NCBI RefSeq assembly: GCF_037023755.1
Contig: NZ_CP146100.1
Coordinates: forward strand, 4,929,501-4,993,500
Source: Saccharopolyspora sp. SCSIO 74807
Lineage (GTDB): Bacteria > Actinomycetota > Actinomycetes > Mycobacteriales > Pseudonocardiaceae
Length of the DNA stretch: 64,000 bases
Reading direction: 5' to 3'
Position numbers and translations under genes: made by a program. The notes under the pieces are model-generated. The model did not search any database. It was given only the letters and a program-made list of their open reading frames with translations, and was not told the DNA's origin. Below, in pieces: positions 30,551-36,399 of this stretch; position 1 is the stretch's first letter, and the number at the start of each line of letters is the position of its first letter.

Positions 30551-30578
30551 CACTCCTTGTTCGATTCATTCCTTGTTC
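30551..30578. repeat. Direct repeat upstream of the Ser/Arg-rich gene
   Basis: CACTCCTTGTTC (30551-30562) and CATTCCTTGTTC (30567-30578) differ at one base and are 16 bases apart. They lie in the 154-base gap ahead of the Ser/Arg-rich membrane protein gene, in a locally T-rich patch, about 50 bases before its start. This may be a tandem binding site for an unknown regulator of the ATPase locus. Confidence 0.45.
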
Positions 30579-30630
30579 AACCTCCCGTACGCTGGACGTT
30601 TCTCAACGACATCTTCGTTCTGGAGGGCTC

Positions 30631-31182
30631 ATGACCACCGCAGCCAGTTCCGGAGGGCGTTCGGCACCGAGCCGGAGCACGTCCCGTAGCGGGACGCAGG
30701 GGCGGCGCACCGGCACGTCGAGTTCGGGCGCTTCACGAACGTCAAGCTCCAGCGCTTCCAGCACGCGAACCCGCGGGCAAACCACCGGCAGCGGGCGCTC
30801 CCGCACCCAGACCTCGTCGCCGTCGGCGCGCAGCCAGTCCGGCAGCGGACGCACCGGCACCCAGACCTCGACGTCCGCGCGCAGCGGATCCGGTGGCGCG
30901 TCGAGCTCGGCGCAGTCGCACGGCGCGACCGTGAACCTGCCCTTCGTCACCGCGGAGTTCCACCGGCCGGACGTGCAGCTGCCGGGCCGCGAGGACTTCG
31001 CCTCCGCTGCCGAGACCGTCCGTTCGCAACTGCCCACGCCGAAGCAGGCGCTGTTCTACGGCGGCCTGGCCGCAGGAACCGCGCTGAGCCTGCTCGAATG
31101 GCCCGTCGCGCTGGCCATCGGCGTCGGCACCGCGGTCGTCACCAGCGGCCAAGGCGGTCAGGGCAGCGCCCAGCGGTCCTGA
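30631..31182 (+). CDS. Ser/Arg/Thr-rich low-complexity protein with C-terminal membrane segment
   Basis: The 183-residue protein has two parts. Residues 1-100 are almost only Ser, Thr, Arg, Gly, Gln and Ala, strongly basic and surely disordered. The rest begins with a conserved-looking patch (VNLPFVTAEFHRPDVQLPGREDF) and ends with one or two hydrophobic helices (ALFYGGLAAGTALSLLEWPVALAIGVGTAVV). TGGAGGG before the ATG is a strong ribosome site. I know no named family. It is followed 232 bases later by the giant P-type ATPase gene on the same strand, so it may be an accessory or regulatory subunit; the stretch between them holds no recognised gene. Confidence 0.75.
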   Translation: MTTAASSGGRSAPSRSTSRSGTQGRRTGTSSSGASRTSSSSASSTRTRGQTTGSGRSRTQTSSPSARSQSGSGRTGTQTSTSARSGSGGASSSAQSHGATVNLPFVTAEFHRPDVQLPGREDFASAAETVRSQLPTPKQALFYGGLAAGTALSLLEWPVALAIGVGTAVVTSGQGGQGSAQRS

Positions 31183-31414
31183 CCGGACGCATTCCGGCCG
31201 AGGCGCGGGCGGCAGGACGGCCGCCCCGCCCCGGCGATCCCGCCGGACGAATCCCCCTGCTCGGCCGCTTCGCGCGGGTGGCGCCACCCGACCCCGGCTG
31301 ACCCCGCGCCGCACACGGCGAGCACGAGCCCGGCGACCCCTTCCGCGGCCCGCACGTTCACGCGCGATTCTTCGCCGCCGCGCGCTCATTCCCGACATTC
31401 CAGGAAGGCAATCG

Positions 31415-34400
31415 ATGCCGTTCGGCAAGCTGCTGTCGCTGGCCGCCGAAACCACCGGGCAGGTGGTCGACGCGGTGCGCACCCTCGGTACCGCTCCGGC
31501 GAGCCAGCGAACGTACTCCGGTGCCGACCGCACGCACCTCGAGGTGCGCGGGCTGCACCGGCCAGGAACCGAGCAGGCCAACCGCGAGCTGCGCAACCGT
31601 CTGTCCGATTTGGACGGAGTGCGCGGGGTCGAGGTGAACGCCGTGCTCGGCCGCGTGGTCGTGCAGCACGAGCCGGAGATCGATCCCGCCGACCTCGGCG
31701 AAGTGGTCTCGCAGGTCGAGGACGAGCACGACCTCACCGAGCTCGGGCGCGCCCCCGGCGGCATGGCGCACCCCGGCGACGCGGGAGCGCTGGTTCGCGA
31801 CGTGGGCGCACTGGGCATGAGCGTGCTCGGGCTGGGCTATTCGGCGGTCGCCGGCATGCTGCCGCTGCGGCCCGCGTCACCGCTGGTGCCGACCGCGGTC
31901 TCGCTGGTCGACTCGGTTCCGTGGTTGCACAACGGGGCCGAGCGCGCGCTCGGCCGGGACGCCACCGAAACCGCGCTCACCGTCGGCGGCGCGCTCACCC
32001 AAGGGCTGTCGCAGAATCCGCTGTCGGTGTTCACCGACCTGGCCGGCCGGTTCTGCACCTCGCGGGAGACGATCGCGCGCGGTCAGGCGTGGCGCCGTTG
32101 GGAAGAGGCCAATGCCGGTCTCCCGGGCGTGCACGAGGCGGAGGCGCTGGAACTCGAACCGCGCCCGGCCGAACTGCCGAACGGTCCGGTGGAGCACGTC
32201 TCGAACCTCTCCGGCACCTTCGCCCTCGGCGGCTACGGCACGGTGCTGGCCGCCACCCGCAACGACCAGCGCGCGCAGGCGACGATGCTCGCCGGAGTGC
32301 CGCGACCGGCCAGAACCGGCCGGGAGGCGTTCGCAGCGCAGCTCACCACCGCCATCTCCGAACGCGGCACGGTCGTGCTGGAGCCGCGGGCGCTGCGCCG
32401 GATGGACCGGGTGGACACCGTCGTGCTCGACGCGCCCGCGCTGCTGACCGGACGGCACGTGGTCGAAGAGGTACTGCCGCTGGACACCGACGCCGACCAG
32501 ACGCGGCTGTTCGCCCGCGCCGGTGAACTCGTCGACCCGGAGCAGCCCAAGGCGCGGCACACCCGCGGCGCATGGTCCTGCGCCCCGCTCGGTCGGCCTT
32601 CGCTGCCGGACCGGTTGCGGGACGCGGTGCGCGAACACCGCGAGCACGGAGCGAACTTGTTGATGCTGAGCCACGAATCGGAGCCGGTAGCGGTCGTCGT
32701 GGTCGTCACCGAACTGGATCCGCTGGCAGAAGCGCTCGTGGAAGCGGGGCGTTGCGCGGGTTCGGTGGTGCTGGCGGGCATCGGCAGCCGCCTCGACCAC
32801 CGGCTCGCCGTCGACGACGCCGTGCACGGCGGCAACCGGCTCGCAGAGTCGGTGCGCAGGTTGCAGCAGGACGGGCACGTGGTGGCGCTGCTGTCCGCCC
32901 GCGGGCACACCGCACTCGCCGCCGCCGACGTCGGCATCGGTGTCCCCGAATCCGAACGGCCCGCGCCGTGGGGCGCGGACGCGCTGTGCCCGAACCGGGC
33001 GGAGGCGCACGCGCTGCTCTCGGCAGTCACCGAGGCGCGCACCGCCAGCAAGCACGCAGCCGCGTTGTCCGTCGGCGGATCCTGCCTGGGCGTGCTGTTC
33101 GGCGCGCTCGGCCCGTCGCTGGGCGCCCCGGCGCGCGCGTCCATGCCGGTGCAGGCCGCCACGATCTTCGCGCTGGGCACCGGCACGCTCGCCGGGTTGC
33201 AGGCGGGCAACCGGCCACCGCCGGCGCCACGGCAGCGCACCCCGTGGCACGCGCTGCCGGGCAAGGCGGTGCTGGGGATGCTGTCGAGTTCGGTCGACGG
33301 GCTCAGCTCCGTCGCGGCCCGCCGGTTGCGCCGCGGCCAGCCGCGCGAGGCGGGCCCGGAAGACACCGGCGTGCTCTCGGCGACGCTGGAAGGGCTGGTG
33401 AACCCGATGACGCCGGTGCTGTTCGCCGGCGCGGTGGTCTCCGCCGGGCTCGGATCGGTGATCGACGCGGTGCTGATCGCCGGCGTGCTCGGCGTCAGCG
33501 CGCTCGTGGACGGCGTGCAGCGGGTGGCCACCGACCGCGAGCTGGCGCGGCTGCTCGACGCCGGGCAGCTGCCCGCGCGGGTGTACCGCGACGGCGAGAC
33601 GACCACCGTGCCCGCCGACCAGCTGGTGCCCGGCGACGTGGTCGAGCTGCAATCCGGCGACGGCGTGCCCGCCGACTGCCGGGTGCTGTCCGCGGAGTTC
33701 CTGGAGATCGACGAATCCAGCCTCACCGGCGAGTCCAACCTGGTGGTCAAGACACCGGAGGCGACCACGGCGGCCGCGCTCGGCGATCGCACCAGCATGG
33801 TCTACCAGGGCACCACCGTGGCCACCGGTACCGCCACCGCGGTCGTGGTCGCGACCGGGACCACCACCGAGATCGGCCGCACGACGCACGAGAACGGCGG
33901 CGAGGTCGGCAGCGCAGGCGGCGTGGAGGCACGGCTGGCCGAGCTGACGCAGCAGATCCTGCCGCTGTCGATCGGCGCGGGCGGCGTGCTGCTGGTGGCC
34001 GACCTGCTGCGCGGAATCCCGCTCGCGCAGACCATCGGCCGCGCCGTCGGCCTGGCCGTGGCCGCGGTGCCGGAAGGCTTGCCGTTCGTGGCCACGCTCG
34101 CCGAACTCGCCGCTGCACGCCGGTTGTCCCAGCGCGGGGTGCTGGTGCGCAGCCCCGCCACGATCGAAGCGCTCGGGCGGGTGGACGCGCTGTGCTTCGA
34201 CAAGACCGGCACGCTCACCCAGGGCCGGATCAGCCTCGGCCAGGTCTCGGACGGCAGGCACAGCAGCGCTCCGGACGCGCTGGACGGAACCCGGCGCCGC
34301 GTGGTCGAGATCGCGGTGCGGGCGAATCCGCAGCCCGATCCGGACCAGCCGCTGCCGCATCCCACCGACCGCGCGGTGCTGGAGGGTGCGGTCAACGCAG

Positions 34401-35908
34401 GCATCGATCCGAACGGGCGCGACGTGCTCGCGGACCTTCCGTTCGAGCCCGCCCGCAGCTACCACGCCACTCGCACGCGCGGCCGGGACGGCACCGCGCT
34501 GCACGTCAAGGGCGCGCCCGAAGTCGTGCTCGAGCGCTGCACGCGGTGGCGCTGCGCGGACGGGGACCTGCCGTTCGACGTGGCCGCGCGCGCCGAAGTC
34601 GAGGACGAGATCGAACGCCTGGCACTGCGCGGATACCGGCTGCTCGCGGTCGCCGAGAAGTCCGAACAGGACGAATCCGGGTCCGAATTGGACGATTCCG
34701 ATGTGGACGATCTGGAACTGGTCGGACTGCTGGGACTCGCCGATCCAGTGCACCCGACCGCGGCCGAGGCGGTCGGCAGGCTGCAACGGGCGGGCGTCGG
34801 CGTCATCATGATCACCGGCGATCACCCGAGCACCGCGGAGGCGATCGCCGCCGAGCTCGGGATGCTGGGCGAGCGCTGGGTGCTCGGCGGCGGGCAGCTC
34901 GACGAGCTCGACGACGAGCAGCTCGCGGCCGCGCTGCCGCAGGTCTCGGTGTTCGCGCGGGTCAGCCCGGCGCAGAAGGCGCGGATCGTGCGGCTGCTGC
35001 GCGCCGACGGGCGCACCGTGGCGATGACCGGGGACGGGGCCAACGACGTGCCCGCGATCAAGCTCGCGCACGTCGGCATCGCGCTGGGCTCGCGGGCCAC
35101 CCCGGCGGCGCGGGAGTCCGCGGACCTGGTGGTGGCCGACGACCGGATCGAGACGATCACCGACGGCATCGTGGAAGGCCGGGGCATGTGGGCCTCGGTG
35201 CACGACGCGCTGTCGATGCTGCTCGGCGGCAACCTCGGCGAGATCGGGTACGCGGTGGGATCGGGTTTCCTCGGCTCCGGTGCCGCGCTCAACGCGCGGC
35301 AGCTGCTGGTGGTCAACATGCTCACCGACGTGTTGCCCGCGATCGCCATCGCGGTGCGCCCGCCGCCGCACGCGACGCCGGAGAAGCTGCTCGCCGAGGG
35401 ACCGGAGGCTTCCCTGGGCAAGGCGTTGACCCGCGACGTGTACGTGCGGGCGGTGGGTACGGCGACCGCGGCCGGCTTGGCGTGGGCGCTGGCCCGCCCG
35501 GTCTCCACACCTGGGCAGGCGCAGACGACGGGGCTGGTGGCGCTGGTGTCCGCGCAGCTGGCGCAGACACTGGCGGTGCGCGGCCGCACACCGCTGGTGC
35601 TGGCCTCCGGCGCGGTTTCGCTGCTGATCCTGCTCGGGGTCGTGCAGGTGCCGGGGGTGAGCCAGTTCTTCGGCAGCAGGCCGCTGCTGCCGCACCAGTG
35701 GCTGATCGCGCTCGGGGCGGCGATGGCGAGCACCGCAGGGGTGGTGGCTTGGCAGCACTGGCCCGGGGACGACGGTGCAGACGGCGCCTCGCAGGCACCG
35801 GCGCTGCCCGGTGCGCCGTCGGAGTCCGTGGTGCAACCGGGCTCCCTGGACGAGTCTCCGCGCGTCGTGGAAGGCGTGGTGGAACCGAGCGAACCGGCGA
35901 GGGTGTGA
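31415..35908 (+). CDS. Very large P-type ATPase with a degenerate second ATPase half (CtpI-like)
   Basis: The 1497-residue membrane pump has an N-terminal ferredoxin-like, HMA-type segment without CxxC (residues 40-105), then a decayed ATPase-like half, then a complete one. In the complete half TGES is near residue 771, the membrane motif PEGLP points to the P2-like cation class, the phosphorylated Asp in DKTGTLT is residue 929, and GDGANDVP is near 1206. In the N-terminal half the matching Asp 339 sits in LDAPALL and the hinge reads SARGHTALAAADVGIGV (494-510), so it cannot hydrolyse ATP. The C-terminus is acidic and disordered. Its ion is unknown. It resembles mycobacterial CtpI in size and plan. 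AGGAAGG precedes the ATG. Confidence 0.93.
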   Translation: MPFGKLLSLAAETTGQVVDAVRTLGTAPASQRTYSGADRTHLEVRGLHRPGTEQANRELRNRLSDLDGVRGVEVNAVLGRVVVQHEPEIDPADLGEVVSQVEDEHDLTELGRAPGGMAHPGDAGALVRDVGALGMSVLGLGYSAVAGMLPLRPASPLVPTAVSLVDSVPWLHNGAERALGRDATETALTVGGALTQGLSQNPLSVFTDLAGRFCTSRETIARGQAWRRWEEANAGLPGVHEAEALELEPRPAELPNGPVEHVSNLSGTFALGGYGTVLAATRNDQRAQATMLAGVPRPARTGREAFAAQLTTAISERGTVVLEPRALRRMDRVDTVVLDAPALLTGRHVVEEVLPLDTDADQTRLFARAGELVDPEQPKARHTRGAWSCAPLGRPSLPDRLRDAVREHREHGANLLMLSHESEPVAVVVVVTELDPLAEALVEAGRCAGSVVLAGIGSRLDHRLAVDDAVHGGNRLAESVRRLQQDGHVVALLSARGHTALAAADVGIGVPESERPAPWGADALCPNRAEAHALLSAVTEARTASKHAAALSVGGSCLGVLFGALGPSLGAPARASMPVQAATIFALGTGTLAGLQAGNRPPPAPRQRTPWHALPGKAVLGMLSSSVDGLSSVAARRLRRGQPREAGPEDTGVLSATLEGLVNPMTPVLFAGAVVSAGLGSVIDAVLIAGVLGVSALVDGVQRVATDRELARLLDAGQLPARVYRDGETTTVPADQLVPGDVVELQSGDGVPADCRVLSAEFLEIDESSLTGESNLVVKTPEATTAAALGDRTSMVYQGTTVATGTATAVVVATGTTTEIGRTTHENGGEVGSAGGVEARLAELTQQILPLSIGAGGVLLVADLLRGIPLAQTIGRAVGLAVAAVPEGLPFVATLAELAAARRLSQRGVLVRSPATIEALGRVDALCFDKTGTLTQGRISLGQVSDGRHSSAPDALDGTRRRVVEIAVRANPQPDPDQPLPHPTDRAVLEGAVNAGIDPNGRDVLADLPFEPARSYHATRTRGRDGTALHVKGAPEVVLERCTRWRCADGDLPFDVAARAEVEDEIERLALRGYRLLAVAEKSEQDESGSELDDSDVDDLELVGLLGLADPVHPTAAEAVGRLQRAGVGVIMITGDHPSTAEAIAAELGMLGERWVLGGGQLDELDDEQLAAALPQVSVFARVSPAQKARIVRLLRADGRTVAMTGDGANDVPAIKLAHVGIALGSRATPAARESADLVVADDRIETITDGIVEGRGMWASVHDALSMLLGGNLGEIGYAVGSGFLGSGAALNARQLLVVNMLTDVLPAIAIAVRPPPHATPEKLLAEGPEASLGKALTRDVYVRAVGTATAAGLAWALARPVSTPGQAQTTGLVALVSAQLAQTLAVRGRTPLVLASGAVSLLILLGVVQVPGVSQFFGSRPLLPHQWLIALGAAMASTAGVVAWQHWPGDDGADGASQAPALPGAPSESVVQPGSLDESPRVVEGVVEPSEPARV

Positions 35909-35933
35909 GCGCGCCGACGGCCCGCCCGGACCA

Positions 35934-35966
35934 GTGATCACCACGCCGGTGGTGGTTCGTGATCAC
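35934..35966. repeat. Paired GTGATCAC palindromes just after the ATPase gene
   Basis: GTGATCAC occurs at 35934-35941 and 35959-35966, 25 bases apart, with an inner CCAC-GCCG-GTGG hairpin between them. The two copies are self-complementary, so the stretch can fold into one 33-base stem-loop or hold two regulator dimers. It starts 26 bases after the ATPase stop codon. It may be a terminator or an operator for what follows. Confidence 0.55.
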
Positions 35967-36020
35967 CCCGGATGTGGTGTGCGCACTCGGTGCAAGAGCA
36001 TCGTGCAGCGCCGCTTGCGA

Positions 36021-36067
36021 GTGAAGGACCTCTTCGCCCGGCTAGGTTGGTCGAAGGGGTTCTTCAC
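36021..36067. ncRNA. Long imperfect hairpin, possible structured RNA
   Basis: A 16-base left arm (36021-36036, GTGAAGGACCTCTTCG) faces a right arm (36052-36067, CGAAGGGGTTCTTCAC) with 14 of 16 complementary pairs; the other two can form G-U pairs on one strand. The loop is 15 bases. Flanking CGA/TCG and TTGC/GCAA pairs can extend it to about 23 pairs with small bulges. It lies in non-coding DNA between the ATPase and the micropeptide gene. It could be a leader structure, a small RNA or a remnant inverted repeat. Confidence 0.4.
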
Positions 36068-36164
36068 CTCGGTGCAACCGTTGCGCGGGCGGGCGTCATC
36101 GGAACGCCAGGGCCGCGGGGCTCTGCGGCCGCACCTTCACCCACGTGAGGGCGTGCTGAGCTGC

Positions 36165-36194
36165 GGTAACGACAATATTCCCGGTCGTTTTACC
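36165..36194. promoter_or_regulatory. AT-centred inverted repeat upstream of the micropeptide gene
   Basis: GGTAACGAC faces GTCGTTTTACC (match with a 2-base bulge) around AATATTCCCG. The AT-rich centre stands out in this GC-rich DNA. It lies about 90 bases before the micropeptide start, so a promoter with an operator is plausible. Confidence 0.35.
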
Positions 36195-36282
36195 CGCTCG
36201 TCACCCGGCACCCACCTCGTCCTCACTCCGGAACGGCACCGTCGGGGCGTACGAGCTGGACACGGCAGAAAGCACGCTGACC

Positions 36283-36399
36283 ATGAACTTCCTGGCGAAC
36301 CTGCTGACCGGGGTGGCCGTGGCCCTCCTGGAAGGTCTCATCGTCCACTTGGCCAAGAACGCCTTCACGCGCGTGGCCCGCTCCCGCGCGGCGGCCTGA
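36283..36399 (+). CDS. 38-residue hydrophobic/basic micropeptide
   Basis: A short open frame from ATG 36283 to TGA 36397-36399. It starts MNFLANLLTGVAVALLEG, continues as one hydrophobic helix to about residue 24, and ends in a basic Arg/Lys/Ala tail (KNAFTRVARSRAAA). The codons have high-GC third positions like real genes here. The ribosome site is weak. A single helix with a cationic tail could be a membrane micropeptide that tunes the neighbouring P-type ATPase, a type I toxin-like peptide, or a secreted amphipathic peptide. I do not recognise a family. Confidence 0.5.
   Translation: MNFLANLLTGVAVALLEGLIVHLAKNAFTRVARSRAAA

Follow-up and report, generated by a model that had tools for sequence, protein, structure and literature searches.

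The locus at positions 30,631 to 36,399 of a 64,000-nucleotide stretch of the Saccharopolyspora sp. SCSIO 74807 genome (contig NZ_CP146100.1, positions 4,929,501 to 4,993,500; this whole stretch is the window below) raises the question of whether a very long P-type ATPase and the two small membrane proteins encoded beside it belong to one system, and what such a system might do. A sequence-only reading of this DNA had described a three-part layout in one direction. The open reading frames (ORFs) agree with it, since 30631-31182 (Ser-rich protein), 31415-35908 (ATPase) and 36283-36399 (micropeptide) follow each other in that order on the plus strand. The answer we favor, at roughly even probability, is that the locus is a phosphate-responsive pump cassette of the FUPA24 type, conserved in the Pseudonocardiaceae, in which the pump has the two small membrane proteins as its partners. 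The features on which the analysis draws are as follows.

30565..30593, plus strand: candidate promoter element, read in the sequence, with two TTCA units 11 bases apart followed by GTACGCT
30631..31182, plus strand: Ser/Arg/Thr-rich protein of 183 residues with a C-terminal hairpin (ORF; 56 of 63 peptide loci have a homologue upstream)
31027..31143 (genome G000:C1:4960527-4960643), plus strand: hairpin core (LP...FYGGLA...EWPVA..IGVGTA), the stretch of the Ser-rich protein that relatives conserve (profile match and alignment)
31415..35908, plus strand: long P-type ATPase of 1497 residues, FUPA24 build (ORF; Pfam and NCBIfam matches in the second half)
31415..33244, plus strand: dead first half, residues 1-610, with an HMA-like start and the remnant of a P-domain (D339 kept; DKTGT and GDGxND lost)
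33245..35905, plus strand: catalytic second half, P2A-like, with residue 929 as the phosphorylation Asp
36177..36231, plus strand: PHO-box-like array of 11-base units (TTTTACC, CGTCACC, ACCCACC, CCTCACT), an array that most relatives keep
36283..36399, plus strand: micropeptide of 38 residues, comprising a single hydrophobic helix that contains Glu17, and a basic end (ORF, profile and substitution ratios)

A profile built from 28 micropeptide rows matched 63 of 346 genomes of the family at E<=0.01, in 64 places. Gene order was examined at 63 of these (9 loci, then 36, then 18 weaker ones); the context counts leave out seven weak matches (G006, G013, G031, G116, G234, G343, G344) as well as G060, and L035 and L224 stop at contig ends. 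The small genes proved to be conserved beside the ATPase, as the earlier proposal of pump regulation presupposed: the pump gene or its N-terminal half lay just upstream of the peptide in 54 of the 63 loci, and 56 loci encoded the hairpin core upstream in the same orientation (42/45 of the stronger and 14/18 of the weaker loci). The pump was a full gene in a single frame in 49 loci and was split, cut or present only as the N-terminal half in five (L218, L224, L056, L114 and L118), with only the pump end visible at the contig end in L224. In L218 (4006-8290) the two halves occupy overlapping frames, which reflects either a natural division into two genes or an error in sequencing. Neither the pump nor the hairpin gene was found in five loci (L127, L138, L229, L234 and L235), two of which (L234 and L235) are likely chance matches. 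L229 (at 8501 in G185, a second copy) showed the peptide and a good array of the kind described below (12 of 14), but its fetched flanks contained neither of the two partner genes. The distance from the hairpin gene to the pump gene was an operon-like 3-17 bases in 23 of the 37 loci measured, compared with 232 bases in the window. In the pump tree all 37 peptide-bearing full-length rows fell within one clade of 38 (support 98); L042, L053, L054, L115 and L143 have long branches, and L141, labelled 'none' on this tree, has a hairpin core upstream of its pump.

The micropeptide was present in 6/6 genomes of the genus that were searched, and in each of three sets of relatives its ratio of nonsynonymous to synonymous changes (pN/pS; uncorrected counts and, for the peptide, few codons) was lowest in the true frame (0.69, 0.45 and 0.24, compared with 0.85 to 3.8 in shifted frames). 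It is therefore more than a chance ORF, an explanation that we rejected on the frame-specific ratios. The starting Met and one Glu were invariant in 28/28 rows, with the Glu at residue 17 or 18 in 44 peptide sequences, and the best 19-residue hydropathy averaged 2.03 with a minimum of 1.64 over the same 44. The hydrophobic moment at 100 degrees was not above that of shuffled peptides (mean z -0.34), and a four-residue pattern (90 degrees) was visible. Seven of 298 genomes of the order matched the profile, six of them from the same family and one a weak outsider (E 0.004). By these matches the micropeptide is a gene family restricted to the Pseudonocardiaceae, the family of the window, apart from that one outsider. 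A scan of Pfam and NCBIfam at E<=1 gave no family match for either the micropeptide or the Ser-rich protein, and a comparison of the peptide and hairpin-core profiles (probability 3.3, P 0.013) is not claimed as homology.

The sequence-only reading had described the upstream gene product as a Ser/Arg/Thr-rich protein with a C-terminal membrane segment. Its membrane part, a hairpin, is what relatives conserve; the long tail occurs only in some genera, measuring 95-154 residues in four Saccharopolyspora loci and 16-30 in several others, and as a conserved feature it was rejected on these lengths. The core consensus (LP...FYGGLA...IEWPVA..IG.GTA) was found in 104 of 397 genomes of the order at E<=0.001. 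It accompanies long pumps outside the Pseudonocardiaceae as well, lying downstream of a pump 35-40% identical to ours in 6/7 loci fetched from family f8 and divergent from a pump of 43-44% identity in 4/4 loci fetched from family f15, in a chosen sample of 20 stretches of which 17 were at or next to listed hairpin-core places. Families f8 and f15 may be Mycobacterium- and Nocardia-like kin. Three hairpin proteins from other families likewise gave no Pfam or NCBIfam match. In L162, L164, L165 and L170 a further protein matches the core weakly (GLVEWP), and in three of the four it has a basic C-terminal tail. L165 and L170 encode it upstream of the pump, L162 on the upstream side of the pump, and L164 next to the hairpin gene, in a locus where no pump was seen. 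A differently worded weak core match, YYGGAAAAVALGLVEPPLGLVIAAVP, lies near the cassette in L218 (at 9312), L220 (at 9317) and, on the other strand, L222 (at 2652).

The pump consists of an intact second half and a dead first half, which reverses the earlier description of a giant P2-like ATPase with a decayed second half. TGES, PEGLP, DKTGT and TGDGxND all sit in the second half (residues 771-1305 of the window pump), and the key residues of these motifs and of NxGE and NxLTD were the same in 53/53 second-half rows apart from rare exceptions (one each at T771 and T1205, Ala for G888 in two; within PEGLP the exceptions concern its G and L). NxGE and NxLTD occupy positions that match the calcium ligands of SERCA. 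Among the P2A calcium pumps (LMCA1, SPCA1 and SERCA), the listerial pump aligned with the second-half profile over nearly its full length (E about 1e-150). That pump shows NLGA and NLVND where the window pump keeps NLGE and NxLTD, and the window pump is further set apart by the dead ATPase half ahead of its catalytic half and by scores under the NCBIfam calcium-pump cut-offs (396 bits compared with the 798 required for the TIGR01522 equivalog).

The first half has lost DKTGT and GDGxND and kept D339 in 52 of 56 rows. It is a relative of P-type ATPases, because it aligned with the second half in hhalign (E 1.4e-8 over 145 columns). The Pfam HMA domain matched the start of the first half in 16/28 members at E<=0.1 (best 1.1e-5), with the window's own pump among those without a match. 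In a single-sequence AlphaFold model of this half (mean predicted local distance difference test score 39.4), confidence was confined to about residues 51-107, where the order of strands and helices fits HMA. The whole-protein comparison with ATP7B (E 1.8e-14) is a sum of weak pieces, and single pieces matched P1B pumps at E 0.0011 to 0.029, the best being HMA4 (0.0011). This suggests, as a lead, that the first half derives from a P1B pump.

By description, the pump matches FUPA24 (TC 3.A.3.24; CtpH and CtpI), whose members are, in the available part of the published account, about twice the usual length, with a large N-terminal segment and the functional motifs in the C-terminal part (PMC3573892). 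The window pump shares the length of some 1500 residues (1497), the large N-terminal segment and the C-terminal motifs, and it is 35-40% identical to the f8 relatives, which are built alike. The portions of that account at hand mention no partner proteins, and a 2023 review, as far as its accessible text goes, places CtpH and CtpI in isolation in the tree as uncharacterised and possibly a unique family (PMC10654040). Long relatives with both halves occurred at 24 places in 23 of the 60 relatives searched, one of these being a second pump of the same genome (L033, G000:C1:6161262-6165266), which is about 51% identical; a hairpin gene lies upstream of it, and no peptide was found there. A pump identical to that of the window is encoded in Saccharopolyspora sp. 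HNM0986.

The phosphate part of our answer is based on an array of 11-base GTTCACC-related units, usually located about 93-114 bases before the peptide start. Over 45 loci the best two units scored a mean of 11.02 of 14, compared with 8.34 (standard deviation 0.81) in shuffles, and a score cut of 11 was reached by 35 of the 45 loci compared with 1% of shuffles; in a scan of periods from 7 to 15 only 11 stood out. The array was kept where it overlaps the 3' end of the pump gene and also in loci lacking the pump. Near the stop codon of the gene for the pump or its N-terminal half, 31 of 39 peptide-bearing loci have the array compared with 1 of 17 others, and that single positive, L056, is in fact a peptide locus; among random windows within pump genes 0.6% reach the cut. 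In the accessible part of the report on S. erythraea the PHO box is described as two 11-base units, each GtTCacc plus 4 (PMC6880422), and the excerpts available for Saccharopolyspora erythraea and Streptomyces together give units of the same GTTCACC type (PMC6880422, PMC4415409), of which the putative copies in the window reach 10 of 14. GTTCACC-N4-GTTCACC occurred in the window's own genome at nine places with <=1 mismatch. The perfect match precedes phoU, another precedes pstS, and a third, on the other strand, precedes the gene of a PhoR-like kinase scoring below its NCBIfam cut-offs; by eye the remaining six had no clear tie to phosphate genes. At <=2 mismatches the motif gave 130 places compared with 13 for the backward pattern, a control that does not keep word composition. 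PhoP is a likely regulator of the array, judged from these motif matches, and the cassette is probably under phosphate control. The promoter pattern in its exact form (TTCA-N7-TTCA-N7-GTA-N3-T) occurred once in the genome, at the source cassette, and in 3/6 genomes of the genus, one of which has it outside the cassette.

Taken as one system, these parts could work as follows. The hairpin protein would be an accessory subunit found with many pumps of this type throughout the order, and the micropeptide a second, family-restricted subunit with a single helix and its own PhoP-type control site. Both would dock on the pump in the membrane, most likely on the dead half, and once docked may determine how stable or active it is or how it assembles; under low phosphate the export of a cation, probably Ca2+, would thereby be adjusted. 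In this scheme we infer the binding, the ion, PhoP as regulator and the direction of the effect, and likewise that the small proteins regulate the pump.

Several observations count against this interpretation. Loci with only the N-terminal half of the pump nevertheless keep both small genes (L056, L114 and L118; 3/63), which complicates the idea of regulation, and both are also retained beside a broken pump in 2/63 loci (L106, where a short remnant is left, and L230, with a frame change and the loss of a stretch that includes the phosphorylation site) and with no pump in another 2/63 (L109 and L112). Conversely, the 38th pump of the clade, L176, keeps its hairpin gene and shows no peptide ORF; no hairpin core was seen in the fetched flanks of 12 of the 16 long pumps lacking the peptide; and in G016, a genome with six core matches, the flanks fetched around the hairpin genes L178 and L179 contain no pump. 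The peptide pair of L109 and L106 gave a pN/pS of 1.30, on very few changes. On the regulatory side, only 10 of 41 loci reached the cut before the hairpin gene (compared with 0.6% of shuffles), the two sites of the window itself, before the Ser-rich gene and before the peptide, each scored 10 of 14 and thus lie below the cut of 11, and the search with the exact promoter pattern gave no regulon. Spacing by 11 bases is also common to other OmpR-type regulators.

The reduced loci were compared further. Between L114 and L118, which belong to one genus and retain the first half only, pN/pS was 0.28 for the hairpin gene, 0.42 for the N-terminal half and 0.42 for the peptide, which looks like selection persisting after loss of the catalytic half. 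Because loci of this kind keep both small genes at low pN/pS, the dead half may be the partner of the small proteins. Each of eight genomes searched, six with a reduced cassette and two with the peptide alone, encodes another long-pump relative (best 49-56% identical; in pieces in G138 and G193), so that an action of the small proteins in trans is possible, as is a role independent of the pump. A bolder version of the pump cassette, which we consider possible though doubtful, would make the dead half of FUPA24 a former pump, perhaps for heavy metals, that is now a docking and sensing module, with the hairpin protein as an order-wide subunit and the micropeptide as a family-specific regulator; under PhoP control the small proteins would govern calcium export, and in reduced loci they would, together with the dead half, serve a paralogous pump in trans.

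The persistence of the small genes beside broken pumps or where the pump is gone also fits the alternative, unlikely in our view, that the hairpin protein and the peptide make up a separate membrane system that responds to phosphate, to which the pump is a neighbor through history and shared control. The hairpin genes of L106 and L109 had a pN/pS of 0.10, and the peptide has its own array, which in L229 stands with the peptide alone. Such independence is at odds with the way the peptide tracks one clade of pumps and with the hairpin domain's company with long pumps in other families, and the further long pump encoded in all six genomes with a reduced cassette (in pieces in G138) offers a possible target.

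Even where the small proteins do belong to the pump, they could scaffold or stabilise it in the membrane with no modulation of transport, as PacL1 does for CtpC and MgtS for MgtA, a reading to which we give a rather low probability. In its precedents a P-type pump is encoded together with, or acted on by, a small membrane protein, as the consulted sections of two reports present them (PMC9374683, PMC10925321), and the hairpin protein does have a basic disordered tail in some genera; against this, the small proteins resemble no described family in the libraries searched, and pump stability and activity are not separable on present evidence. Known systems differ from the locus in further respects. 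PacL1/2/3 with CtpC/G/V are likewise actinobacterial small membrane proteins encoded beside a P-type ATPase, according to the available parts of two papers (PMC9374683, PMC13043812). PacL1, in the part of its description at hand, carries a metal-binding motif at its C-terminal end, the position at which the hairpin protein has its hairpin, after the disordered tail. Membership of the hairpin protein in the PacL group was rejected for want of a DUF1490 (Pfam) match. MgtS, KdpF, phospholamban and sarcolipin are, as the accessible text has it, single-helix peptides shorter than 50-60 residues that are found next to or on a P-type pump (PMC10925321), and in this they resemble the micropeptide, which differs from them in lacking a sequence family match, in the invariant Glu within its helix, in a PHO-box-like site of its own and in being sometimes kept with no pump. 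PacL with CtpC and MgtS with MgtA are the nearest working models. Finally, the notion that the peptide ORF is an untranslated by-product of a conserved regulatory stretch, with the array just upstream and a window ATG preceded by only a weak ribosome-binding sequence by eye, is very improbable in view of the frame-specific conservation in three sets of relatives, the invariant Met and Glu (28/28) and a hydropathy of >=1.64 in 44/44 sequences.

If the locus is the pump cassette that we favor, the uncharacterised pumps of the CtpH/CtpI type would gain two candidate subunits and a candidate signal, phosphate. The naturally reduced loci separate the parts of the cassette and would make pump function directly testable, and if the peptide binds the pump, the phospholamban/MgtS theme would extend to a new bacterial group through a helix built around an invariant Glu.

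The sequence-only reading had also noted inverted-repeat-rich DNA between pump and micropeptide. The repeat is present, the best palindrome in this gap being a 19-base one at 36021-36067, and it is a local feature: the gap measures 374 bases in the window compared with 168-182 in four sister species, and on this ground and that of copies elsewhere in the genome it was rejected as a system part. Three partial copies (80-87% over 39-50 bases) mark the palindrome as a low-copy intergenic repeat. The locus is flanked upstream by a CbiX-type gene and downstream by an EamA-type gene on the opposite strand.

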